Shown one piece after another: positions 336-13,132 of a stretch of DNA of 35,951 nt (its first letter is position 1; each line of letters begins with the position of its first letter). The stretch is from Hyphomonadaceae bacterium (GTDB taxonomy: Bacteria > Pseudomonadota > Alphaproteobacteria > Caulobacterales > Hyphomonadaceae): positions 1-35,951 of the forward strand of contig JAOATF010000181.1 of the NCBI GenBank assembly GCA_030158285.1, given 5' to 3'. The notes under the pieces were generated by a model that was not told the origin of the DNA, searched no databases, and was given only the letters and a program-made list of their open reading frames with translations. The position numbers and the translations under genes are program-made.

Positions 336-411
336 TCCCTGATAGCTCAGTTGGTAGAGCATTCGACTGTTAATCGAATGGTCGCTGGTTCGAGTCCAGC
401 TCAGGGAGCCA
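336..411 (+). tRNA. tRNA-Asn(GTT), integration target
   Basis: A complete 76-nt cloverleaf can be drawn. The acceptor stem pairs TCCCTGA (336-342) with TCAGGGA (401-407), followed by discriminator G408 and encoded CCA (409-411). The anticodon stem is 362-366/374-378 with the loop CTGTTAA, and the anticodon GTT is at 369-371. An integrase gene starts 172 bp downstream in the same direction, the usual arrangement when a tyrosine recombinase uses a tRNA 3' end as attB. The tRNA stays intact because the element restores its 3' end. Confidence 0.96.
397..411 (+). other. attL core candidate (tRNA-Asn 3' end)
   Basis: P4-type integrases usually recombine within the 3' end of a tRNA, leaving a direct repeat that ends at the CCA. 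The last 15 bases of tRNA-Asn, CAGCTCAGGGAGCCA, recur with a single-base deletion at 13119-13132. The true repeat may be longer, because flanking TCGCTG and GGTT pieces are also shared with gaps. Confidence 0.5.
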
Positions 412-583: not shown

Positions 584-1876
584 ATGAAGCTGACCGCAGA
601 CCAGATCAAAGCAGCCGAGAAGCGCGCGACGCCATACAAGATGGCGGACGGGCATGGGCTCTATCTCTATGTCGCGCCGGGTGGCGGGAAGCTCTGGCGT
701 CTCGACTATACCAGCAAGACCCGCACTGGCCGGATCGGACGGAACGGGAAAGCGGTGAAGTCAGGCCGAAACACCCTCAGTCTGGGGGCGGCCCATGTCG
801 CGACACTAGAAGACGCCCAACGGTCGCTGGACAAGGCCCGCGCCGACGCCACAGCCGCGCGCGAGCGGATCGCACAAAGCCGCGACCCTGCCCAAGAGCG
901 AGAGGTCGCCAAGCTGACGGCAGCCCGCGAAGCTCGAAACACCTTTGCCCATGTCGCCGCAGAGGTGGTCCGGCAAATGCGGAGGGACGGCAGGGCGCCC
1001 AGAACCGTCCGCAAGCGCCTCTGGATTTACCGCGCGCTGGCGAATGACCTTCGCAGGCGCCCAGTCGCCGACATCACGGCGCCGGAAATCAAGGCGGCCA
1101 TCAAGCGGGTTGCGGATCGCGGCACGCTGGAGTCGGCGCGTCGCCTGCGCTCCGCCATCGGGCAGGTTATGCGACACGCAATCTCCGAAGGGCTCCGTCC
1201 CGCTGGCAGCGACCCCACGCCTGCCATGAAGGGAGTCATCAAGACCGGAAAGACAAAGCACCGCGCAGCCGTCACGGCGCCAGAGGAAGCCGGTCGACTC
1301 ATGGTCGCCATGGAAGGTTACCCCTCGCCGCTCGTGCGCACCGCCCTGATGCTATCGGCCTACACGTTCGTTCGGCCATCGGAACTGCGTCTGGCGAACT
1401 GGCAGGAACTCGACCTTCGCAAGCGCCTCTGGATCATCCCGGCGGAGCGGGTGAAGGTTCGCGAAGAGCATCGCGTACCGTTGTCCAATCAAGCCCTGCG
1501 TCAGTTTCAGTTGCTCTGGCGCCTCACCGGTCGCAGCGGTGATGGGCTCTGCTTCCCCGGAGTCCGCCACGGGCGCCCGCTATCAGAGAACACCATCAAC
1601 ATGGCGCTCCGGACTCTCGGCTTCGCAGCGGATGAGCATTGCGCGCACGGCTTCCGCGCGATGGCTTCGACCATCTTGAACGAGCATAGCGACTTCGAAG
1701 GCGACGTGATTGAGCGGGCGCTAGGCCACAAAGAACCGAACGCCGTGCGCAGGGCTTACAATCGCGCCTCGCACATGGCGGAGCGTATGAAGCTCATGCA
1801 GTTCTACGCCGACTTTCTGGACGAGCAGGCGGGTGCCATCCGGAAAGAACATCAGGATCGGCGCTTCTTCGGCTGA
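584..1876 (+). CDS. int: P4-type tyrosine recombinase (integrase)
   Basis: This 430-residue site-specific recombinase integrates and excises the element at tRNA-Asn. The N-terminus (about 1-95) has the DUF4102 arm-binding pattern, with DGHGLYLYV and GGKLWRLDY. A core-binding segment follows (about 120-220), then a catalytic domain with Arg264 in FVRPSELR, His355 and Arg358 in HGFR, His382 in LGHK and nucleophile Tyr392 in RAYNR. All the expected catalytic residues are present, so the enzyme looks functional. The start is the ATG right after a GACGGTA-type site, with GGGGA about 7 nt upstream. Length is normal for the family. The gene reads away from the tRNA, as in P4 and many genomic islands. 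Confidence 0.95.
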   Translation: MKLTADQIKAAEKRATPYKMADGHGLYLYVAPGGGKLWRLDYTSKTRTGRIGRNGKAVKSGRNTLSLGAAHVATLEDAQRSLDKARADATAARERIAQSRDPAQEREVAKLTAAREARNTFAHVAAEVVRQMRRDGRAPRTVRKRLWIYRALANDLRRRPVADITAPEIKAAIKRVADRGTLESARRLRSAIGQVMRHAISEGLRPAGSDPTPAMKGVIKTGKTKHRAAVTAPEEAGRLMVAMEGYPSPLVRTALMLSAYTFVRPSELRLANWQELDLRKRLWIIPAERVKVREEHRVPLSNQALRQFQLLWRLTGRSGDGLCFPGVRHGRPLSENTINMALRTLGFAADEHCAHGFRAMASTILNEHSDFEGDVIERALGHKEPNAVRRAYNRASHMAERMKLMQFYADFLDEQAGAIRKEHQDRRFFG

Positions 1877-1969
1877 CTTCCGCTCGTCGGAATCTAGTCC
1901 GCGCTGGACTTCGCCGGGCCAAACAATCATCGTGGGGGCCGATGCAAAACCGGGAAGGGGCTTGTAGAG

Positions 1970-2320
1970 ATGTTCGGTAGATCAAGCGGCAAAGAGAACA
2001 AACCCGAGTTGGCTGGCGCCGTGCGCTACTTTTTCGAGTTTGCAGAGTTTTGTCTGGACCATGTTGATGCCCAGAACAAAGTGGCCGTCGATGTCGCCAT
2101 GGCGAGCCAATTCCGTGAGAAGTTCCTCGGTCAACCGGGGCGGCAGGACTTGGGTCTAGGCAAGATGTCGCGAATCGAAGCGGAAGCGATTTCCTTCGCG
2201 CAACACCATCTGACACAGAAGAAGACGTTCCTTATCGGTCAGGTGATGATGTCCGGCGAACCAAACATGCAGTTGCCTTTGGCGAAGGAAGTAAGCGCCC
2301 ATCTCGCGAAAATCATATAG
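1970..2320 (+). CDS. Hypothetical protein (116 aa)
   Basis: I do not recognise this protein. It is soluble-looking, with helical segments around AVRYFFEFAEFCLDHVDAQNK and a C-terminal stretch QLPLAKEVSAHLAKII. There is no signal peptide, membrane span or metal motif. The ATG has a good ribosome site (AAGGGG, 9 nt spacing). It is the only gene besides integrase that reads rightward in the element and is convergent with the zinc-ribbon membrane protein, whose end lies 6 bp away. It lies in the usual accessory slot next to int in satellites, so a helper- or host-directed function is possible, but nothing in the sequence shows it. Confidence 0.6.
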   Translation: MFGRSSGKENKPELAGAVRYFFEFAEFCLDHVDAQNKVAVDVAMASQFREKFLGQPGRQDLGLGKMSRIEAEAISFAQHHLTQKKTFLIGQVMMSGEPNMQLPLAKEVSAHLAKII

Positions 2321-2326
2321 TCTCAG

Positions 2327-2839
2327 CTAGTAAGAGACACTGGCCGCCTTGGCACCGCAGCGGGTGCATCTCATCGCATTTGCGTCCACTCGCAAAGATC
2401 GGTGCGCGGCGCTGGCTGAAGCGCCTTCGGTTGTGGAAGCACGCTTCTGCATCAAGAGTTTTAGGTCTCGATCATCCAGCGATTTTACATGCTGGCACTT
2501 GTTGCATTTGATCGTCGATCCAACGCGGACGGTAACGACTTGCGTTGGCTGAGCGGATTGCAGGGGCTTTTTGTCGAGCACTGGAACACGCGGCGGATGC
2601 GGATTTTCTAGCCCGCTGGCCTTTTCCTGGTTCGTGCGCTTCCGCCTTCCGAAGATCGAGTTTCCGATCAAGAAACCAACGGCCAATTCAATTACAGTAA
2701 CCGCCCCCCACGCGGGCCCGAACGCCGACGCAAAGGCCAGTACTGTAACGGCGCACTTCACAAGCAACGAGCGCGAAGTGAGGGCCCCGGTGACGAACCC
2801 CAGAGACAAAACGGCGACTGCATAATGCCACTGGAACAT
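2327..2839 (-). CDS. Membrane protein with C-terminal zinc ribbon
   Basis: This 170-residue protein has two or three hydrophobic helices in its first 65 residues (AVAVLSLGFVTGAL, CAVTVLAFASAF, VTVIELAVGFLIGNSIFG). A basic RRKR stop-transfer stretch, a Pro-rich linker and a cytosolic tail follow. The tail carries two CxxC pairs, CNKC and CTRC, separated by roughly 45 residues, which would make a zinc ribbon. The Met at 2839 is chosen over an upstream in-frame Met at 2944 because it has an AGGGG ribosome site 8-9 nt upstream. It is the last gene of the leftward series. No family is recognised; a sensor or effector at the membrane is a guess. Confidence 0.6.
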   Translation of the reverse strand: MFQWHYAVAVLSLGFVTGALTSRSLLVKCAVTVLAFASAFGPAWGAVTVIELAVGFLIGNSIFGRRKRTNQEKASGLENPHPPRVPVLDKKPLQSAQPTQVVTVRVGSTIKCNKCQHVKSLDDRDLKLLMQKRASTTEGASASAAHRSLRVDANAMRCTRCGAKAASVSY

Positions 2840-3020
2840 CTGAGCCGCCCCTGTCAGATCGGCAGAAACAAAACCTAAGGCAGTGAGTTCAGTCCACGCA
2901 AGGCTCCCCTGAGGTAATGGCAGTCGTCGCCCGGTGAAGAGCATGGATCAGAGCGACGCTAGCCGAGCGGATCAGGTTCTCCGAGAAGGATCGCTGGAAG
3001 CGGATGACCCGGAAGGGGGT

Positions 3021-3422
3021 CTAGGCGTCTCTTACGATCTGGGCCGAGCGATACTTCAGATACAGGGCCTTTTGTTTCTGCTGGTCGCCGCCTGCATCGG
3101 CGAAAGCCTTTGCCCAGAGCCCCGGCTGTGCGTTGCCTGACTCAACTTCCTTAGCTGCGATGGCGTACGCGTCTTCCTCGCGACGCGAACGTTCTGAGTT
3201 GCCGCGCATCTTGTGCGCTTCTGTCGTTACGGAGTCGGCGGCCTGTCTTGCGGCTTCAATTGTGGCTGCCGCAGCTTTCGTGGCAATGGCACCGGCCTTT
3301 CCCGCGTTGTTTTTGGCGAACCGAACCGAGCTTCGGGCGACTACGATACACACAGCGATGAAGCCGAATACGAGCAGCAGCGACGTTATCGTGATAAGCG
3401 CTGCCCACCCCTGTGCCGGCAT
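3021..3422 (-). CDS. Small membrane-anchored helical protein
   Basis: This 133-residue protein has one N-terminal transmembrane helix (WAALITITSLLLVFGFIAVCIVVA). A long Ala-rich charged region follows (KAGAIATKAAAATIEAARQAAD) that would form an amphipathic or coiled helix in the cytosol or periplasm. The C-terminus has WAKAFADAGGDQQKQKALYLKYR, a pattern reminiscent of short-helix repeats seen in many bacterial membrane proteins. The Met at 3422 has GAGGGG about 7 nt upstream; an upstream in-frame start at 3545 lacks this. It lies directly after terL on the same strand. No function can be assigned. Confidence 0.6.
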   Translation of the reverse strand: MPAQGWAALITITSLLLVFGFIAVCIVVARSSVRFAKNNAGKAGAIATKAAAATIEAARQAADSVTTEAHKMRGNSERSRREEDAYAIAAKEVESGNAQPGLWAKAFADAGGDQQKQKALYLKYRSAQIVRDA

Positions 3423-3605
3423 AGTTATTCCCCTCGCAAATGTGAATGTTATAGGGGAAACAAACCCGGCTCGATAGCCCTGTACCGGACGGTTGATAGC
3501 ATTGTCCAGACCGTCCTGGTCCCAGAGGTACGCAGCCCGGATCATTGAAGGCGGTGGCTGTACATCGCTCTTTCTGCCACCGCTTCAAACGCCCTTCTGG
3601 GGTGC

Positions 3606-5438
3606 TCACTGTCTCCCTCTCTGCATCCATTTCGAGTGAACCACTGTGGGAATCTTCGGCGCCGTGATGACGTTCCGAACTTCGTTTTCCCGGCGGGTGA
3701 GGTCCACACTGCAAAGTTGGCGAACGGCCATCGCCATGCAGGTCGCGTCTAACGCCTCGTTGCGAACGCCGGGGATTCTTTCCCAACGCTTCCGCACCTG
3801 CCCTGCCTTGTAGAAGGTGACGCGCCGTTCGCCGCACAACTCCTCATAGAAGCGCGTTGGCAGATCGTGGGAGAAGCGGATCAGCGTCGGCTGCCCCAGC
3901 AGGCCATAGAGCCGGCTCTTCGCTGTGTCGGCGCCCATGATGTAAAGGCCCTGCTTGCTCGACCGATCAATGAGCAGACGGTTGCCCCCGTCGCCCTTCA
4001 GGCTCACCACGCGGCGCGCAAACCGTGGCCGCGTGAAGCGATAGACGATGTCGGTATGCGAGCCGGAGCCGGAGTCGACGCCAGCCGCGTCATAGCCGAG
4101 CGATCCGCCCAATAGATGTGGGAAGGATCGCTTCAGAAGGTCATCCAGGTCGCGCCAGGTTTGGTCGGAGGTCGGCGGGCCATGCACCGTGTCATAGTCC
4201 AGCACGACGATGGCGCCGGTCGCGGTGTGGCCTAGCGTGACCACCTCTAGCCTATCGTCCTGCACGTCCACGCCCGCCGTCAGCAAGAGCACGTCCGGCG
4301 GGATAGACTGCAGTCCGCAGGGCTCTGCACGGGCTTGCAATTCGGAGTCGTTGAGTCCCTCGCCTGCCTTGTCTATCCACGCCTCTCCGATGAGGGTGTT
4401 CGTCCAGACCCGGAGCAGGTCGGGGTCTTTCCGCGCGGCCAGGAACTCGCGCGCGATCTCCGCCCAACTCGCGTTCGCCAATGTCGAGATAAGCGCCGAT
4501 GTCTTGAACCCGGCATGGCCCTTCACCTGCGGCCGGGTCGCGCGCCAACGGCCAGCTTCGACCATGGCGGGCTTGCTCGACTCGTCGATCACGCACCCAT
4601 TCGCCGGGCAGACCATGTGCGCGGTGTGCGGCAGATGTTCGCCATTCGAGTCCTTGTCGAATTTCAGATGGCGCCAGAGTGGCTCGAAGTGCTCGCCACA
4701 ATGCGGACAGGGAAGCTCGAAAATGCGCTGATCCGACTCGCCATACGCCTTCAAGATGTTCGACGACTCCGCATTGGTCGGAGTCGACGCTTGGAAAATG
4801 AGGCGGTTCGGGAAGGATAGCGTCCGCTTTTCCGCTAGTGCCGTTGCAGAACCTTCGGCGGACGGCTCATAGGCGTCCACCTCGTCCATGACCAGGATGC
4901 GGATGGTGTGGCGCCGCAGGTTGCGCGGCGATGCAGCGGCAACGCATTTGAACGAACCACCGGGGAAGCGGCGTGACAGGATGGTGTCGCGGTTCGCCTT
5001 CTCTCTCGTGAACACGCCAGCTAGCGCCGGACTGGCCGCGAAGGTCGGCTCGATTGTTCCGGTCACATAGTCGCGGCAGTCATCGAGCGTCGGCTGAAGT
5101 GCGAGGATGTTGCAGGGATCATTCTTCACATACGCGGCGATGATTGCCGTTATCAGCATCGTGGCGCCGATCCGGACGGGCTTCACGAACGAGACGCGCG
5201 AGATGCCGGGATCGTCTACCGCATCGCAGATGCCTCGCTGATAGCTGAAGAGCGCCATGGCGCCCGGAGTCGCACTCACGTCCGCAGGCAAGGTGATGTT
5301 GGACTCGATCCAGTCGGCCAGCCTGATCTTCGGCGGAGGCGCCCATTGCGCGAGGGTTTCTGCAATCGCTCCCGCAAGAGGAGAGGATGTCGAGAGTTGG
5401 CCCGTGGTGGGCGTTTCGAGTTCGAGGGCGTCAGACAT
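3606..5438 (-). CDS. terL: Terminase large subunit, GpA family
   Basis: This is the DNA-packaging motor and nuclease (610 aa). The N-terminal ATPase has a degenerate P-loop region around VKPVRIGATM (85-94), as is common in GpA-type enzymes, and a clear Walker B LVMDEVD (182-188). The conserved SFPNRLIFQASTPT (208-221) corresponds to the coupling region. A zinc-binding insert has Cys244, Cys247, Cys277 and Cys282. The C-terminal nuclease domain carries AGVDVQDDRLEV and the downstream YDAAGVDSG. Length and domain order match full-length lambda gpA-type terminases, so it looks intact. The start at 5438 overlaps the terS stop by 8 bp; longer readings into terS lack support. GpA-type terminases usually cut at cos sites. 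Confidence 0.93.
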   Translation of the reverse strand: MSDALELETPTTGQLSTSSPLAGAIAETLAQWAPPPKIRLADWIESNITLPADVSATPGAMALFSYQRGICDAVDDPGISRVSFVKPVRIGATMLITAIIAAYVKNDPCNILALQPTLDDCRDYVTGTIEPTFAASPALAGVFTREKANRDTILSRRFPGGSFKCVAAASPRNLRRHTIRILVMDEVDAYEPSAEGSATALAEKRTLSFPNRLIFQASTPTNAESSNILKAYGESDQRIFELPCPHCGEHFEPLWRHLKFDKDSNGEHLPHTAHMVCPANGCVIDESSKPAMVEAGRWRATRPQVKGHAGFKTSALISTLANASWAEIAREFLAARKDPDLLRVWTNTLIGEAWIDKAGEGLNDSELQARAEPCGLQSIPPDVLLLTAGVDVQDDRLEVVTLGHTATGAIVVLDYDTVHGPPTSDQTWRDLDDLLKRSFPHLLGGSLGYDAAGVDSGSGSHTDIVYRFTRPRFARRVVSLKGDGGNRLLIDRSSKQGLYIMGADTAKSRLYGLLGQPTLIRFSHDLPTRFYEELCGERRVTFYKAGQVRKRWERIPGVRNEALDATCMAMAVRQLCSVDLTRRENEVRNVITAPKIPTVVHSKWMQRGRQ

Positions 5439-5775
5439 CGGCGCCCCCCTTGCCGCTCGCCAGCGCCTGAAGGGCGGCCCTGATTTCCTCATCCATGGCC
5501 GCCACGGTCTGACGGGAAAGCGCGAGCTTGGCGCCGAGACGGCTCGGGATTGCCAGAAGACGTTGCCGCGCGTCCGCCACCAGGCCGGACCAGGTTGCAG
5601 CGACATCGGCGGCGGGGATCAACTCGCCACGCATCTTCGCGTTCTTCAGTTCCACCTGTTCGGCTTGCGCCAGCACGAGCTTTTGCCGGTGGTCCTCGAC
5701 AGGCCGACCCGGTGCGCGTTTCGGCGGCGCCGGTTCGCCAATGAGGTCTTCCATTGATCGACGGGAATCACGCAT
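5431..5775 (-). CDS. terS: Terminase small subunit, Nu1-like, lacking the HTH half
   Basis: The protein is 114 residues. The part from about 32 to 80 (QVELKNAKMRGELIPAADV and WSGLVADARQRLLAIPSRLG) matches the usual C-terminal, oligomerising and TerL-binding half of Nu1-type small terminases. The winged-helix DNA-binding half that Nu1 carries at its N-terminus is not visible. The first 30 residues are basic and Pro-rich instead (PPKRAPGRPVEDHRQK, an AT-hook-like GRP). It overlaps terL by 8 bp, so the two are translationally coupled. An ATG at 5775 is chosen; a GTG one codon upstream is possible. A cluster of GTGGACA iterons lies just upstream. Confidence 0.8.
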   Translation of the reverse strand: MRDSRRSMEDLIGEPAPPKRAPGRPVEDHRQKLVLAQAEQVELKNAKMRGELIPAADVAATWSGLVADARQRLLAIPSRLGAKLALSRQTVAAMDEEIRAALQALASGKGGADV

Positions 5776-5881
5776 CACGGTACTCGCCTGAAAATGTTGA
5801 ATCGGAAAATTCGGGAAAGCGGAAAAGACCGGGGCTCAGCGGACCCCCGACGCGGCGCCCCCGACAAAGTACCTTCGCCGT

Positions 5882-6085
5882 CTGTCCACCCTGTCCACCC
5901 ATGACCACCCAGACCACCCCACGCTTTCTCAGGCGCGTGTGCGTGCGCGCATACGTGTAGAGTCTAGGGTGGACAGGGTGGACAGGGTGGACAGAGGCAG
6001 AAAAGCGAGCAGCTACGGGGGATTTTCTGTCCACCCATGGCGTGTGTGATCGGTGGACAATGGGTGGACTCATGACCAGTCCACC
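5882..6085. repeat. GTGGACA / TGTCCAC iteron cluster
   Basis: The gap between the helicase stop and terS holds repeated GGGTGGACA units. Three perfect tandem copies lie at 5967-5993. Inverted copies lie at 5882-5890, 5891-5900 and 6027-6036, with degenerate copies at 5901-5920. Further copies at 6052-6059, 6062-6070 and 6078-6085 run into the helicase 3' end. An alternating purine-pyrimidine stretch (about 5932-5957) separates the inverted and direct arrays. Such an arrangement suits a replication origin bound by the helicase or an accessory protein. It also suits a cosB-like packaging site next to terS. Which one cannot be told from sequence. One related copy (AGTCCACCC) lies at 12725-12733. 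Confidence 0.75.
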
Positions 6086-7440
6086 TTGCTTCCGAGCCAT
6101 TTGGCGAACTCGCGCCTGCACTCTTCGAGCGGAGGCAGGTCATAAAACCAGGTCCGCGCACGGCCTTCGCGCCTCCGCGCATCCACGGCGCTAGGGCACA
6201 TGTCGCGAAGCTCACGGCCAAACATGTCTGCCGTGAGAATGTCGCCATGGTGGTGGCGGCCTCTCATCCACACGTCCAGCGCGCTCCGCAGATCATCCTT
6301 GCGAACGCTGACGGCCTGCTCCCGCCAGTCCGGGGGATCACTTTCGAAGCGTTCGTGGCGCTCGCAGGGATTGTCACCCGCCGCCAATACCTCGTGCCAC
6401 CATGCCTGAATGCCTCTCAGACCGGCCAGCTTCTCGACGGCCAGCGCCTCCGTCTGCGGGATGGTCCGCACGTCCACGCGCGACAGGTCGAAGTCCAGCA
6501 GGTAGCGCATCAGCGCGCGACGGCCGCCGCCTTCCATCTCATCCGCGATGGCGCCGAAGTATTCCCCGTCACGCGCGCGAGCGTCGCTCAAGTCCAGCAC
6601 GCAATAGCGCCGCTCATCGTGGCGCGCGGGGACGGTCCAGCGTTCGTTGCTGGTCATCATGTAGCGATGGAATGAGGGAAGCTCGATTGCATCGACTCCC
6701 TTCTTCTCAAGCTGGATTGTCGGGCCGGTGATGAGATGCTTCAGGGCGCCTTCGGCGGCCTTGTCGCCAGCCCAGAAGCCTTCCTCAATCTGGACCAGAA
6801 GGGCCGTCGCCATGTGAGCGTTGAACTGCCCCGTGAGGCCGCGCGGCGTGTAGACGGTCGTATAGTGGCGACGCATCAAGGCGCCGAACTCTTGCGCGAC
6901 AATCGACTTCCCGGCGCCTTGCGGGCCCTTCAGGACCAGAGCCGTTCCCGGCTTCTCCCATGGCCGTTGGATGGTATGGGCCATCCACCCCATGACCCAA
7001 TCGAAACGCTCGCCCTTGCCCCTGCAAACGTGGTCGTGGATGTGGTCCAGGTAGAGATCACATGACCCCTTGGCGCTCGGGGTGTATGAGAAGCCCTTCC
7101 ACAAGTTGAGCGCGCCCGGCGTCTTCTCGCGCGGGTCCAGAACGATGCTCGTGTATTGGCGCCGGTGCCGACTCTGCATCCAGATTTTAGCGGCGGAGGT
7201 GAATACGTCCCCGCCGCGAGTCGTGCGTGACCACACGCCATCATTGGCGAACCAATGCTCGAACTCGCGAACGGAAACGATGCTCATTGAGCCGTCGCGC
7301 TCTTCGCGCACGACGCCCTTCCCGAACACGTAGGCGTGTGTCTCGTTGATGCGCGCGACGATTGCCGCCTGCTCTTCGATCTCGTGCGGGGCCAGTTCGG
7401 ACTCGATGCCCAGAATGTCTTCCATTGATCGCCGGGTCAT
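6070..7440 (-). CDS. SF3-type replicative helicase (DUF5906-like)
   Basis: This 456-residue ATPase probably unwinds element DNA for replication. It has a Walker A motif GPQGAGKS (172-179), a Walker B-like ALLVQIEE (213-220), the SF3 motif C MMTSN (261-265) and a following basic patch with Arg273, Arg277 and Arg278 that could hold the arginine finger. This set is typical of the phage and plasmid DUF5906 or VapE-like helicases. No primase catalytic domain is visible, so priming would come from the host or helper. The ATG at 7440 overlaps the upstream stop as ATGA, indicating translational coupling. Satellites and P4-like elements commonly carry a helicase of this class. Confidence 0.85.
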   Translation of the reverse strand: MTRRSMEDILGIESELAPHEIEEQAAIVARINETHAYVFGKGVVREERDGSMSIVSVREFEHWFANDGVWSRTTRGGDVFTSAAKIWMQSRHRRQYTSIVLDPREKTPGALNLWKGFSYTPSAKGSCDLYLDHIHDHVCRGKGERFDWVMGWMAHTIQRPWEKPGTALVLKGPQGAGKSIVAQEFGALMRRHYTTVYTPRGLTGQFNAHMATALLVQIEEGFWAGDKAAEGALKHLITGPTIQLEKKGVDAIELPSFHRYMMTSNERWTVPARHDERRYCVLDLSDARARDGEYFGAIADEMEGGGRRALMRYLLDFDLSRVDVRTIPQTEALAVEKLAGLRGIQAWWHEVLAAGDNPCERHERFESDPPDWREQAVSVRKDDLRSALDVWMRGRHHHGDILTADMFGRELRDMCPSAVDARRREGRARTWFYDLPPLEECRREFAKWLGSKVDWS

Positions 7441-7964
7441 GGCATGCGCACCTTCCAGAGCAGGTCGCTGAACTGACGCCGACTCCAAATTTTGAAGATT
7501 GCCTCATCGAGCATGGCCTTGGGGATGGCAGCGAAGCCATGGCCGCCGCGCCACCTTGGCGCCTCCAGAACCAGGCGGCACGCGATGGCGGTAGGATGCT
7601 CGCCAGAGGTGACAATCGCGCTCTGGCGCCTTGCCCACGCCTCGTCTGCGATCCGTCGCCGCTCGCGCTGGGGTCGCGTCATGTTTCGGGGGTCATGCCA
7701 CGGGGGCAGCGGGCCCTTGCCATCCCGAAAGTGTTCCAGTTCCCGCATGTGTTGCCATGGGAAAAGCTCGGCAGGCCAACGCTGCCTGCCTTCGATGATG
7801 GCCTTGGCCTTGTTGCGGATGGCGCGGCGATGCTCCGGCACACGCTCGCGCGGATCGAAGCGCAATAGCTCCAGCGCAAGCAGCGCATCGGCGGGCGCCA
7901 GACGATGAGCTTTTTCTGACTTGGGGTGTTGGCTGGGGTTTCCCGCCTCAGTATCGTTTGTCAT
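7437..7964 (-). CDS. Hypothetical protein upstream of helicase (175 aa)
   Basis: I do not recognise this protein. It is Arg- and Trp-rich, soluble and mostly helical, with a middle stretch MTRPQRERRRIADEAWARR and a C-terminus AMLDEAIFKIWSRRQFSDLL. A strong GGAGG ribosome site lies 8 nt before the ATG. Its stop overlaps the helicase start (ATGA), so the two proteins are made together. Its position suggests a replication accessory or DNA-binding role for the helicase, which is inference only. The 106-bp gap upstream (7965-8070) holds nothing I can name. Confidence 0.7.
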   Translation of the reverse strand: MTNDTEAGNPSQHPKSEKAHRLAPADALLALELLRFDPRERVPEHRRAIRNKAKAIIEGRQRWPAELFPWQHMRELEHFRDGKGPLPPWHDPRNMTRPQRERRRIADEAWARRQSAIVTSGEHPTAIACRLVLEAPRWRGGHGFAAIPKAMLDEAIFKIWSRRQFSDLLWKVRMP

Positions 7965-8070
7965 TGCTTCGGCCCTCCATGGCCGGGGTATTCATCGCGG
8001 CCTTGCAGGGCCGTTTCATCATTGCGGTGTTCCCTTGGGCCCCCGGTTCGCGTCGGGGGTCCATTGGCCG

Positions 8071-8334
8071 CTACACGATGAGTCTCTTCGCTCTTGCCCA
8101 CGCCTTCACCGCTTCGGCGGAGAAGGTCGCGCGCTTTCCATCTTCCTTGACGTGGACCGGCTGAAGGTCGCCGCACTTCCACGCTCGCAGGATTGTTGAA
8201 GACGACACGCGAGCCAGACCCGCAGCCGTTTCGTGCGTGACCTCATCGAGGCAGGCGGACGCCGCACGCTTGCGAGCACGTGCAAGCGCAGCGGCGCCGC
8301 CATCAGCCTCTGAGAGGTTGAGCCGGGCAGCCAT
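8071..8334 (-). CDS. Small HTH_17/MerR-like DNA-binding protein (87 aa)
   Basis: The C-terminal two thirds (about 34-87) reads as an excisionase or MerR-like winged HTH. ETAAGLARVSSSTILRAW forms the helix-turn-helix, a basic KEDGKR wing follows, and FSAEAVKAWARAKR forms the final helix. This pattern is shared by AlpA/Xis-like proteins and by the N-terminal half of lambda Nu1. The start overlaps the upstream DUF2190 stop by one base (TGATG), so it is in the head-gene operon and not beside the integrase. It could be an excision factor, a transcription regulator, or the DNA-binding half missing from the short TerS. The sequence alone does not decide. Confidence 0.75.
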   Translation of the reverse strand: MAARLNLSEADGGAAALARARKRAASACLDEVTHETAAGLARVSSSTILRAWKCGDLQPVHVKEDGKRATFSAEAVKAWARAKRLIV

Positions 8335-8690
8335 CAGACTGCGACAGCCGGTTGCGTGAGGCGAACGCGAACGGTCGTGGCGCCGGCTCCCGCCACTGCC
8401 ACCGCGACGCCGATCCGGACGGTTCCGCCGGAGTTGGAATCCTCATCTGCGTTGCTGTGCGCGTTGCCATCCGTCGCGTTGAAGTAGACGAACGCGCCGA
8501 CGGTGAAGACGCTTGCGCTATTCTTCGCCAGAGCGAAAACGCCTTCCGTGACGAGGTCGAGGCTTTCGCCCGTCGCAGCATCGCCAGCGGCCACGCCGAA
8601 GAGCGAGCCAATCAGAACGCCATCGCCCGAGTCGACAGTGGCGGGAGCCGTCACGGTGATCGTGCGGCCGGGTTGAACAAGGTTTTTCAT
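8334..8690 (-). CDS. Capsid decoration/cement protein, DUF2190 family
   Basis: This 118-residue protein is nearly all beta-strand and Gly/Ala/Val-rich. It begins with MKNLVQPGRTITVTAPATVDSGDGVLIGSLFGVA and ends with GTVRIGVAVAVAGAGATTVRVRL, the standard pattern of DUF2190 proteins. These proteins lie beside major capsid genes and include capsid-stabilising decoration proteins. The ATG overlaps the stop of the gpW-like gene by 4 bp (ATGA). Its presence implies the element builds a mature head. It is full length for the family. Confidence 0.82.
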   Translation of the reverse strand: MKNLVQPGRTITVTAPATVDSGDGVLIGSLFGVAAGDAATGESLDLVTEGVFALAKNSASVFTVGAFVYFNATDGNAHSNADEDSNSGGTVRIGVAVAVAGAGATTVRVRLTQPAVAV

Positions 8691-8914
8691 TTGCAGTCTC
8701 CAAATTTGGAAATCTTGAAGCGGAAAGTATTCGGGGGAGCGGATTGCATGGCCGCGATCCGGCTTTCGAGCGCAGCAATTGCGCGTTGCATGGCGCCGGG
8801 AGATGCGTAGGTGATCTCCTCCTCGCCAGACTTCACTGACAGCACCCCGCGACCGAGTTGGCGGACCAACTCGTCACGAAGCGTCATCAACTCTTGAACC
8901 GTGAGCGCGGTCAT
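8687..8914 (-). CDS. gpW-like head-tail joining protein
   Basis: At 75 residues this has gpW size and pattern: an N-terminal helix (LTVQELMTLRDELVRQLGRG), a short beta hairpin (GVLSVKSGEEEITYASP) and a C-terminal helix (GAMQRAIAALESRIAAMQ). gpW fills the portal channel after packaging and forms the platform on which the tail docks. In an element without tail genes it would be the connection point for a helper tail. The ATG at 8914 is preferred, with GGGAG 10 nt upstream. A TTG at 8923 overlapping the capsid stop is possible but crowds the ribosome site. Confidence 0.78.
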   Translation of the reverse strand: MTALTVQELMTLRDELVRQLGRGVLSVKSGEEEITYASPGAMQRAIAALESRIAAMQSAPPNTFRFKISKFGDCK

Positions 8915-8919
8915 GAGGA

Positions 8920-10764
8920 TCAAGCTCCCGCGCTATTAGAGTCGTTCTCGTCGCCGTTCTGGACGCGGTACGCGCCGCGCCAGCCGATGGCCGCCGCGCC
9001 GACCACGTGGATGCAGCGGAAGCTCACGCCCCACGTATCCCACGCTTGCTGCGTCTCGATCTGCGGGCCTTCGCGGCCAGCCAGATGCGCCAGTTCGAGC
9101 ACGGGCGCCAAAGCCGGATCAGCGAACACGAACCATTGGAACGGCTCCAAACGCGGCTCGACCATGAGCGTGAGCTTGGACTGGAAGGGGTTCGTCTCGC
9201 CGAAGGTCTGGGCCTGATACTGGGCCAGGAATTTCTCGGCGTGGGTCTCCATCTCTTTCGAGACAACGAGATGCTTCGGCGCGATGTTCAGCAGAGTCGT
9301 CCCATCCAGCCCGGTGATGCTGCGCATGGATTGGCGAATATCGCTCATCAGCCCGACGCCACCGATGTCATCCAGCGTGCCCCACGCCATGGTGTTGGCG
9401 TGGTCGGCGCTGAAGAGGTTGAAGCCGTCATCCATCGCCGGGTTGGCGTTGATAACGGCAATCAGTTCGTCCGCATCACGAGCCGCCGCAGCGATGCCGA
9501 ATTGCTCGGCTGCATCAGTGAGTGCACCGAGGTTGTCGTTGAGAATCGCCTTCATGCTGTAGTCGATTCGACGTGCGAACGGCTTCACGCGGATGGTCAA
9601 CTTGGACTCCTCACGCGAAGCGTGCGTGATCTCGCCATGCTCGCCCAGTTCCTCCAGCGCGCCGAACTCGCCTGCGCGAAGCCGCTCGTTGTCGCGGAAG
9701 TCGCTGACGGTCGTCTTCTTCGCCAAGCTGACAAAGGGAGAAGGCGCCACGCCGTACTTCGCCAACGCGACGCGGTTGGCCGTACCGCCCAGAAGGTGGT
9801 TCGGCATATCGGACGTGCCCATGTAGCGAAGCGCAAGCTGCACCCTTTGCTCGCGCGACATGCCGAAGGTGCGGACGCCAGCGCGTTGAAGAACGAGGTC
9901 CAGATGCTCCGAAACCGAAAGCCCCCGGAACTCTCGCGCGTTGTCAGCCGGCGCCGTGCCCATAGCGCGAGACGTCAGCGCGTCGATCTGCCGAGACATG
10001 ATCTCGTCCGGATTGTCGTGCGAGGCGCCGACGCGAGCGGGGGGAATGCTCCGCGTGCGTTCCTGCATGATTTCATACGCGCGCGTCTTCGCATCCGCTT
10101 CGGTCCCGTCCGCGTCGATAATGACGTCGGCCTCTTCGGCCGCTCGCTCAAGATTTCCCGGCAGGGCTTTCCTGAAAATGTTGCGAATCTCCGCGCGCGT
10201 TTGCGCGACGGTGGACTCGTTCGCGGGCGTGTCGATCACGTCCGCTTCAGGCGCCGGATTGGCGCCGCTCTTCTTAGGCATGGGATTGCTCCGTACTTTG
10301 GCGCCGGGATCGGCAGGGATTGGGACGATGCTTGCCTCGTGGATTGACCACGCCAGCGCCGTCCGAAAACGCTGGCCTTTGGAGTCTGTGGAATCGGCCC
10401 AGCGCGTGACGCGGTAGCCGATTGAAATGCTGCGAAGGATGCCGTCGCGGATGTCGCCAACGATGCCCGCCACGTCATCGCGGCTGGACAGCTTCAGGCG
10501 TGCGCGGATTTCTCCGTCTTTGCGCCATGCCTTCTCGATCACACCCAGCACGGCGCGCGTGCTGCCTTGGTTGTGCGCGTCCAGAACGGGCTTGCCTTCG
10601 ATGTCGCGAAGGTCCGCGTTGGCGATGGGCAACCGCTCGATATAGCCACCGCGATTCACATCGGCGCCGGTCGAGAGAACAACCTCAACCGTGTTGGCTT
10701 CCGCGTTGAACGTGGTCGGCGCGAGCGATGCGGCGCGCAATTCGAGTTGGATGCTATTCGGCAT
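8920..10764 (-). CDS. Prohead protease-major capsid fusion protein
   Basis: This single 614-residue polypeptide makes the protease and the shell. The N-terminal 160 residues form an HK97-type (U35) prohead protease with His63 in LDAHNQG and Ser112/Ser114 in RSISIGY. A charged, Ala-rich middle region (about 165-280) resembles a scaffold or delta domain. The C-terminal 300 residues resemble the Mu gpT-like or HK97-fold capsid family, with FGALEELGEHGEI, FNLFSADHAN and VSFRCIHVVGAAAIGWRG. Fusions of this kind are known in phages and should self-cleave during maturation. The start at 10764 overlaps the portal end by 11 bp; a longer reading lies inside portal. No break is visible. Confidence 0.9.
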   Translation of the reverse strand: MPNSIQLELRAASLAPTTFNAEANTVEVVLSTGADVNRGGYIERLPIANADLRDIEGKPVLDAHNQGSTRAVLGVIEKAWRKDGEIRARLKLSSRDDVAGIVGDIRDGILRSISIGYRVTRWADSTDSKGQRFRTALAWSIHEASIVPIPADPGAKVRSNPMPKKSGANPAPEADVIDTPANESTVAQTRAEIRNIFRKALPGNLERAAEEADVIIDADGTEADAKTRAYEIMQERTRSIPPARVGASHDNPDEIMSRQIDALTSRAMGTAPADNAREFRGLSVSEHLDLVLQRAGVRTFGMSREQRVQLALRYMGTSDMPNHLLGGTANRVALAKYGVAPSPFVSLAKKTTVSDFRDNERLRAGEFGALEELGEHGEITHASREESKLTIRVKPFARRIDYSMKAILNDNLGALTDAAEQFGIAAAARDADELIAVINANPAMDDGFNLFSADHANTMAWGTLDDIGGVGLMSDIRQSMRSITGLDGTTLLNIAPKHLVVSKEMETHAEKFLAQYQAQTFGETNPFQSKLTLMVEPRLEPFQWFVFADPALAPVLELAHLAGREGPQIETQQAWDTWGVSFRCIHVVGAAAIGWRGAYRVQNGDENDSNSAGA

Positions 10765-12121
10765 TGGAGTCGTCCTCTTCGGTCTCAGGATCATCGCCAG
10801 GCGCTTGCGCGTGCGGGTCCGCTGCGATGTCTGCGTCCACGCGTTCGATGCTTTCGCCGCGCGCTGCGATGGCTTCGGCGCGGCTCATGGTCTTCATGTC
10901 CAGCGCGAGCTTGACGGCTTGCAGGGCCTTCAGCGGGTCGGCTTCAGGCATGGCGGGGAAGCGCCATTCGGCAACCTCCCCGCCATTCTCCTCGCCCTGA
11001 AGCTGCCGTGTGAGGGTCCAGCGGCGCCAGATGGGCGCGAGAAGCTGAGGAACGATGACGTTGAATTGCAGCGCCTCCAGAGACGCCTTGAACGTGATGA
11101 GCGCGGCGCGAAGGCTCGAATAGTTCGCGCGGCTCACGTTCCCAGAGACCATGAAGGCAGGAACGCCCAGCCCGGCCGCAATCTCCTCCGTGATGGCGGT
11201 CATAAACTCGACGGACTGTTGAGCCTGCGTCGGCTGATTGAACTTGATGTCCATTCCGGACGGCAGACGCCGCACGACTCCGGGCTCCAGCGACACCTCC
11301 AGCGTGTCGCCGCTCTTCTCGCCTTCGAACGGAAGCTGGGCGGCGCCGTTTGCATCCGTGAGGAATCCGGCGTGCATCGCCGCAACCTGGAAGCCCTTCA
11401 GCAGTGCATCAGAGAGGAGCCCCAAGTCTGCGAGCTTCAGCATGATCGGCGCGAACCATGAGACGCCGCGAATCTGGCCGACGCCATCAGGCCGCATCAG
11501 GTGCAGCACGTCCGCCGCATCCACGCGCACTGGCGGCGCCCACGTCTCGAACTGTTGAGTCGGCAGGAAGGGCCTTATCCAGTACGCGACGCGCTCCCCT
11601 TGCGCGTTATGTTCGATGCCCGCCGCTATGAAGGCGGCGCCGCCAAGCTCGCGAGTGACGGACTCGTCCACCTGCTCGGCAGGCAATAGCTGGAGTTTCA
11701 GGCCGTCCGCACGTTGGCGGAAGACAACGAACACCTCGCCATCAACGATGAGCGCCTGAATCGCTAGCCGGATCAGACCGCCGAAGTTTGTCCGGCCATC
11801 CGCATCGCAATTGTCCCACCATTGCAGGAAGGCTTCGGCCAGCCCCGTGTCAGCGTGAGCGGGAACGGCGCCGGCTCCCCACAAATAGGTCGCGAGCGCG
11901 TTGACGCTGGCCGAAGCGCGCGCCTCATTCGCTGCGAAGTAGCGGGCCTTGCTGCGGATCGACCCGGCGGCCTGAATGGTCTCCAGCGACGTGCGGCCAT
12001 GGCGCACCTCACGGGCGAACCGATCAAAGCGGCCAGCGTCATAGCCGCGCGTCCGCATCTCCGGCGCGATGGCGCGAGCGATGGCTTGGCGAGCCCGGCG
12101 GAAGATGGATGCGCGGGCCAT
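10754..12121 (-). CDS. Portal protein, lambda gpB family
   Basis: This 455-residue protein forms the dodecameric ring through which DNA enters and to which the tail docks. Recognisable segments are the N-terminal NEARASASVNALATYLWGAG region, the central DVLHLMRPDGVGQIRGVSWFAPIM, and the highly characteristic GVPAFMVSGNVSRANYSSLRAA at about 345-370. The acidic C-terminus ends in EEDDSNAE. Length is slightly under lambda gpB but the core is complete. The start has GGAGGG 8 nt upstream and lies 2 bp after the stop of the preceding gene. It comes before the capsid gene in transcription, while terminase lies about 5 kb further down, a rearranged order compared with lambda. Confidence 0.9.
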   Translation of the reverse strand: MARASIFRRARQAIARAIAPEMRTRGYDAGRFDRFAREVRHGRTSLETIQAAGSIRSKARYFAANEARASASVNALATYLWGAGAVPAHADTGLAEAFLQWWDNCDADGRTNFGGLIRLAIQALIVDGEVFVVFRQRADGLKLQLLPAEQVDESVTRELGGAAFIAAGIEHNAQGERVAYWIRPFLPTQQFETWAPPVRVDAADVLHLMRPDGVGQIRGVSWFAPIMLKLADLGLLSDALLKGFQVAAMHAGFLTDANGAAQLPFEGEKSGDTLEVSLEPGVVRRLPSGMDIKFNQPTQAQQSVEFMTAITEEIAAGLGVPAFMVSGNVSRANYSSLRAALITFKASLEALQFNVIVPQLLAPIWRRWTLTRQLQGEENGGEVAEWRFPAMPEADPLKALQAVKLALDMKTMSRAEAIAARGESIERVDADIAADPHAQAPGDDPETEEDDSNAE

Positions 12122-12847: not shown

Positions 12848-12992
12848 AAATACCGGGCGTTAGCCGCCCTCCGCCAAGCCGGAATGCTCCGGATTCGGAC
12901 ACGCGGAAGGGCGCCGCCGGACAGGCGGGAGCGGCCTAGAAAGCCCCTGAAAAAATTTTGCAGGCAGGTTGCGGATTCGGCGGTCGTGCCGA

Positions 12993-13070
12993 TACCGTCG
13001 CCTCCGTGGCCTCGATCCCCTCAGAAGTCGCCAGATTTCCGGTAGATCGACGGTAGCAGTGCTGACGGTA
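12993..13070. repeat. Integrase arm-type site cluster, right end
   Basis: Three exact GACGGTA heptamers, at 12993-12999 (-), 13049-13055 (+) and 13064-13070 (+), match those found beside the integrase at 426-582. The right-end copies lie 49-126 bp inside the candidate attR. Matching arm sites at both ends support the element boundaries independently of the weak core repeat. Confidence 0.55.
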
Positions 13071-13118
13071 TTCGCGAGAATGCCTGATTTTATTGACTTG
13101 GTTGGCTTCGCTGCGGTT

Positions 13119-13132
13119 CAGCTCAGGAGCCA
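13119..13132 (+). other. attR candidate, degenerate tRNA-Asn 3' end
   Basis: CAGCTCAGGAGCCA equals the last 15 bases of tRNA-Asn with one G missing. The preceding bases (TCGCTG, then GGTT) also match tRNA-Asn T-arm sequence with a short gap. The displaced host copy of a tRNA 3' end is free to decay after integration. If this is attR, the element may excise poorly. A chance match remains possible. Confidence 0.4.

Follow-up and report, generated by a model that had tools for sequence, protein, structure and literature searches.

Iterons abutting a probable lambda-type cos block are the likely replication origin of a putative capsid-encoding satellite in a Hyphomonadaceae bacterium

Between a helicase gene and the small-terminase gene (terS) of a Hyphomonadaceae bacterium lies a dense array of short repeats, which raises the question of whether the repeats serve as a replication origin, as a packaging site, or as both. 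The whole 35,951-bp stretch of DNA around the array (the window) was analyzed. A sequence-only reading had described about nine 7- to 9-bp units in both orientations, including three perfect 9-bp tandem copies, with inverted arrays around an alternating purine-pyrimidine stretch, and counts and shuffles bore this description out. The unit GGTGGACA has seven exact copies in the window, all of them at 5883-6059 (expected, 0.9; largest of 100 shuffles, 4), and the core GGTGGAC has nine copies within 5884-6085, in both orientations, versus at most five copies of any 7-mer per 210 bp in 100 dinucleotide shuffles of the window. Once degenerate copies are counted, there are 11 iteron sites in about 5882-6086, and paired adjacent GGTGGACA units are unique to this array in the whole host assembly. 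The purine-pyrimidine run of 27 bp was reached in 0 of 500 shuffles. The same reading had the site touching both the helicase end and the terS start; the former stood, with the outermost iteron (6078-6085) falling within the final codons of the helicase gene rep (stop at 6070-6072), whereas the latter did not, the nearest iteron being ~104 bp from the terS start (5778) with a separate conserved block in between.

The array is part of an island of ~12.7 kb at tRNA-Asn that carries an integrase, a lambda-type terminase, a helicase, and cement, protease-capsid, portal, and adaptor-like genes (Table 1). An exact 14-mer search for att sites gave no match, and a shorter imperfect match turned up subsequently; attL and this near-copy differ at a single base, and the chromosomal genes past attR include a multicopper oxidase and SCO1. 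Repeats of GACGGTAT occur near both island ends (534-541, 12992-12999, and 13064-13071) and are possibly arm-binding sites of the integrase. No tail genes were recognized in the island by profile matches, and several island ORFs lacked any match and may include an unrecognized tail gene. In being integrated, with head and packaging genes of its own and no recognized tail genes, the island agrees with the definition of capsid-forming PICIs (cf-PICIs), and by its gene content it looks like a capsid-forming satellite. The reported average size of cf-PICIs is 14 kb (PMC10803314); as in those elements, integrase, replication, terminase, portal, and capsid genes are combined in an integrated island (~13 kb here) with no recognized tail genes, whereas the alphaproteobacterial host and the lambda gpA-type terminase set our island apart from them, the reported hosts being mainly Enterobacteriaceae, Pasteurella, and Firmicutes. 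An 87-aa HTH protein encoded at 8071-8334 is weakly MerR-like (PHROG 2474, E 0.005) and absent at that place in close relatives; it could be an AlpA-like regulator.

Table 1. Positions of the island genes, attachment sites, iteron sets, and packaging elements in the 35,951-bp window
Feature	Position	Strand	Basis or remark
attL, 3' end of tRNA-Asn (336-411), CAGCTCAGGGAGCCA	397..411	+	tRNA detected
Probable attR, imperfect copy of tRNA-Asn 3' end, CAGCTCAGGAGCCA	13119..13132	+	Near-copy; ordinary chromosomal genes beyond
Tyrosine integrase	584..1876	+	Pfam PF00589, PHROG 1
Terminase large subunit (TerL), lambda gpA type (ATPase and nuclease)	3606..5606	-	Pfam PF05876, PF20454; PHROG 15
Terminase small subunit (TerS), 115 aa, short form	5431..5778	-	PHROG 57
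Probable lambda-type cos block (cosQ-cosN), ~54 bp	5821..5874	-	PWM; arranged like the ends of lambda, BZS1, and VP58.5
Predicted 12-nt cohesive overhang GTCCGCTGAGCC	5833..5844	-	Lambda 30-nt cosQ-to-end spacing and TTTTC anchor; uncertain by ~2 nt
cosQ-like AGGTACT	5868..5874	-	2 mismatches to GGGTCCT (most relatives and lambda)
cos-proximal iteron set	5882..5919	-	GGTGGACA at 5883-5890 and 5892-5899; degenerate GGTGGTCA/GGTGGTCT at 5902-5918
Alternating purine-pyrimidine center, 27 bp	5933..5959	.	Between two inverted iteron sets
Three perfect tandem 9-bp iterons (GGTGGACAG)	5966..5994	+	AGGGTGGACAG starting at 5966, 5975, and 5984
rep-proximal scattered iterons	6028..6085	.	6028-6035 (-), 6052-6059 (+), 6063-6070 (+), 6078-6085 (-)
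Rep, replication initiator helicase (DUF5906, P4/SaPI-like), 472 aa	6070..7488	-	Pfam PF19263; PHROG 1156 'DNA primase'
Predicted C-terminal winged-helix domain of Rep, residues ~390-466, proposed iteron reader	6091..6321	-	AlphaFold2
Head decoration (cement) protein	8334..8690	-	Pfam PF09956, PHROG 122
Head-tail adaptor, Ad1-like	8687..8923	-	PHROG 2545, 1e-8
Prohead protease/major capsid fusion	8920..10794	-	NCBIfam NF045541 above cut-off; Pfam PF25209
Portal protein, lambda family	10754..12121	-	Pfam PF05136

Relatives of the island were collected by TerL searches and comprised a paralog in the same genome, several genomes of the same order or class, a GTDB record from Hyphomonadaceae (L004), and 80 IMG/VR contigs, many of them 11 to 14 kb long. 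A position weight matrix (PWM) trained on 60 relatives, with the window's clade left out, placed 5820-5879 (minus strand) at the top of the entire window with 17.7 bits, while the next independent site scored 0.8. In most loci, the conserved block captured before terS by the PWM consists of GGGTCCTTCC, ~20 nt, a GC-rich GGGG...CCCC, and then, in many loci, TTTTC. Comparable arrangements are found at phage ends: the right end of the lambda record closes with GGGTCCTTTCCGGTGATCCGACAGGTTACG and the left end opens with GGGCGGCGACCTCGCGGGTTTTCGC, and in the records of BZS1 and the linear VP58.5, GGGTCCTTCC stands 29 to 31 nt ahead of the end and terS ~75 nt beyond it, with a 12-base left cohesive end annotated in BZS1. 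Given the top rank under clade-free training and the match to the ends of related phages, the block at 5821-5874 is very probably cos. In lambda-like cos sites, the conserved parts are cosQ, cosN, and their spacing (PMC4669245, PMC9026076); likewise, the window's cosQ lies beside terS at a fixed distance from cosN, and the spacing fits lambda, BZS1, and VP58.5, with cosQ ~29 to 31 nt before a 12-base 5' overhang (predicted here), terS soon after, and a gpA-type terminase. Unlike in lambda, cosQ reads AGGTACT and origin iterons lie directly to its left, an arrangement absent from the full phages examined. The cosQ of the window thus departs from the exact heptamer GGGTCCT, and cosQ varies in the window's clade too (AGGTTCT, AGCTACC). 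The suspected packaging site thus very probably lies close by, but just outside the array and not in the iterons, and the idea that one site might serve both origin and packaging gives way to two adjacent sites, the iterons and the cos block.

A literal search for GTGGACA in the relatives was nearly empty, and it was misleading because the unit letters vary between islands. Absence of the iterons from otherwise conserved relatives had been named as grounds for rejecting their role, and these particular letters are indeed absent, yet arrays with other letters occupy the same place. In the five loci read first, arrays with different unit sequences were located upstream of terS in that position. 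Within the 330 bp before cosQ, a repeated 7-mer reached p<=0.01 in 55 of 69 loci, compared with 4 of 69 downstream of cosQ and 9 of 67 further upstream; this 7-mer measure is crude, and the 14 of 69 loci that miss p<=0.01 in the fixed interval include some with an array further upstream. The arrays fall between the rep stop and cosQ: where the sequence extended far enough (66 loci), an ORF resembling Rep and no shorter than 250 aa terminates 66 to 800 bp upstream of cosQ. The Rep types among the relatives include PriCT_2 with AAA_25, DUF5906, Prim-Pol, and VapE.

Iteron sequences followed Rep and not the terminase. Across 50 non-redundant loci, iteron similarity correlated with Rep (Mantel r=0.36, p=0.0005) and best with the last 130 aa of Rep (r=0.43, p=0.0005), whereas no tracking was detected for TerL (r=0.04, p=0.21) or TerS (r=0.04, p=0.26), in a permutation that ignores phylogeny. 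A natural swap illustrates this pattern: the window island, its paralog L042, and L004 have TerS and TerL 80 to 86% identical, but their iterons are GGTGGACA, TGGACCA, and CGAACG, respectively, those of L042 and L004 being unrelated to the window's even though their TerS proteins are 82 to 86% identical to the window's. The paralog lies in the same genome (contig C154, ~1244-11760), with TerL 80%, TerS 82%, and helicase 38% identical. The two co-resident islands are of one kind, near-identical in terminase and portal and different in Rep and iterons, and would be two satellites with distinct origins.

These results bear on whether TerS might bind the iterons as cosB-like sites and so initiate packaging. 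The array is near terS and the cos block, and lambda cosB likewise holds repeated sites in both orientations (PMC4669245). However, cosB lies between cosN and terS, whereas the iterons are on the opposite side, past cosQ, and their unit sequence tracks neither TerS nor TerL. Moreover, phiAP1, phiNP, VHML, BZS1, and VP58.5 have cosQ beside terS without iterons; this control rests on these phages, because in 6 of 10 full phages the search pattern matched nothing like cosQ beside terS. The window TerS also seems to be without the winged helix by which cosB is recognized in lambda. With the array on the wrong side of the cos block, no tracking of TerS or TerL, and complete phages of the same terminase type devoid of iterons at that place, the cosB proposal of the sequence-only reading is not supported, and we consider it very improbable. 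The TerS proteins of the window, L004, L042, L044, L045, L086, and L087 are short (mostly 115 to 150 aa) and, judging from their sequences, seem to be without the N-terminal winged helix present in most relatives' TerS (~165 to 180 aa). A split TerS with the 87-aa HTH protein as its DNA-binding part was rejected as a general rule, since other short-TerS islands are without such a gene there.

The layout of the array, in contrast to its letters, is shared. In the window, L042, L044, and L087, scattered iterons after rep are followed by three tandem 9-bp units, a purine-pyrimidine center, and inverted units that end 2 to 9 bp from cosQ by the 7-mer measure; the respective units are TGTCCACCC, GGTGGTCCA, GTTCCTAGT, and TGTCTCCAG, and the center, in the same position throughout, measures 27 bp in the window and 40 to 49 bp in the other three. 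Such a center is not general, being significant in 9 of 66 loci, including the four closest helicases. Long alternating purine-pyrimidine runs were also observed in the rep-cosQ interval of L108, L109, L121, and L148. The Rep C-termini of these four loci are unlike the window's (that of L148 resembles those of L108 and L109), so the center may have several origins or have spread repeatedly. A closer pair, L143 and L153, has Rep 86% identical and arrays at nearly equal offsets. When the arrays are aligned, eight of the 10 iterons in L143 share one G-to-T change in L153 (GGGTCAC to GGTTCAC); L153 keeps a ninth, shifted by one base in register, and lacks the remaining one. Residues that differ between the two Rep proteins are overrepresented among the last 20 (8/20 versus 88/667, p=0.003), a cut picked after viewing the alignment, with p=0.05 for 30 residues and no significance for 100. 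The origin layout appears fixed across relatives, while the letters seem to vary in step with the C-terminal domain of Rep.

Rep itself resembles known initiator helicases, matching the NrS-1 helicase both in sequence (6k9c, 1e-21) and in fold (Foldseek, 6.8e-10) and SaPI PriRep1 in fold (7pds, 7.8e-5). The full AlphaFold model is poor (mean pLDDT 57) and well predicted only in the C-terminal domain, where residues ~390-466 have pLDDT mostly 80 to 92, with one dip near 60, and the predicted order strand-helix-helix-strand-strand-helix. SaPI Rep uses its C-terminal domain to bind iterons directly downstream of its own gene (PMC7581432). In Gram-negative PICIs, the origin comprises two sets of iterons on the 3' side of pri-rep, pri-ori having been tested in a plasmid, with the region between the sets reported to be AT-rich (PMC6092414). 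The window site shares with these origins (EcCICFT073 pri-ori, SaPI rep-ori) iterons that adjoin the 3' end of the initiator helicase gene, the arrangement of two sets around a center, and the helicase match, and the winged helix predicted at the C terminus of Rep may correspond to their origin-binding domain. The site differs in that the center is alternating purine-pyrimidine and GC-rich rather than AT-rich, and in that the iterons abut a lambda-type cos in an element with its own terminase and head genes. The AT-rich region typical of PICI/SaPI origins was not found in the rep-cosQ interval, which is 62% GC, the highest AT content of any 30 bp being 0.50. No strong low-stability region was evident in a stability scan, and the center was ruled out as an obvious melting site, the minima of the least-stable-region scan falling off center. 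On this comparison, the window site would work like a PICI/SaPI origin with a variant center.

Position and strand might instead fit operators for terS-terL transcription, bound by Rep or another regulator: the iterons lie a short way upstream of terS, on its strand, and initiators often repress neighboring promoters too. Nevertheless, the arrays are on the far side of the cos block, rep in this island is itself preceded by head genes on its strand, and known satellite origins have the same fixed layout of two inverted sets and a long center (PMC6092414). Rep would still be required as the binder, and we regard a purely regulatory role as improbable. Satellite P4 offers another comparison, as repeats of ~8 bp at a 9-bp spacing, in both orientations, likewise follow the 3' end of its primase-helicase gene; the P4 unit TGTTCACC is one base off TGTCCACC here, a resemblance that may be coincidence because units vary freely in this island family. 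P4 requires both ori and crr, which lie apart from each other and each contain TGTTCACC-type repeats, and its crr is the region 3' of the alpha gene, as the iterons are to rep, so that the array could be imagined as an accessory element like crr, replication actually starting at another place in the island. However, the island has a single cluster, every exact GGTGGACA copy sitting in 5883-6059, whereas P4 has a second, distant ori, and alpha has a primase domain, which was not found in the 472-aa Rep. The island is accordingly not of the P4 type, with its alpha-like primase-helicase and separate ori and crr, and there is very little chance that the array is such an accessory element.

We consider it very likely that the iterons are the origin of a capsid-encoding satellite, read by its own Rep, with a lambda-type cos adjoining. 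This proposal, which was one of those in the sequence-only reading, is supported by arrays in relatives that occupy the same place and track Rep but not the terminase, and by the PICI/SaPI layout (PMC6092414, PMC7581432). With a predicted winged helix in Rep and the SaPI/PICI and P4 crr parallels, the simplest account is that Rep starts replication at the iterons and the terminase cuts the neighboring cos. In the sequence of events that we infer, Rep would bind the iterons through its C-terminal winged helix and assemble on both inverted sets, the DNA would open between or beside them, and the excised circle would begin replicating. The replicated DNA would then be the substrate for packaging: the island's own TerS-TerL would cut at the cos block, the resulting genome would begin at the cos/terS end and carry the origin at its opposite end, and tails would be supplied by a helper.

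In a more far-reaching version, origin and packaging site would form a composite: because iterons bound by Rep abut cosQ, initiation and packaging termination would affect each other, and iteron letters and the Rep winged helix would switch jointly, forming a compatibility code by which same-terminase islands could coexist in a cell (the window island and its C154 paralog do so); we hold this version to be rather doubtful. The window island has the sequence of a putative PICI-type origin next to a very probable lambda-type cos. Its relatives amount to a natural series with a constant origin layout and changing recognition letters, and the DNA code of a winged-helix initiator is thereby open to testing by simple swaps. 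Moreover, the order Rep, iterons, cosQ-cosN, terS is a sequence rule that locates and orients satellites in Alphaproteobacteria and metagenomes, and the changing iterons could explain how satellites that share one packaging system avoid replication interference.
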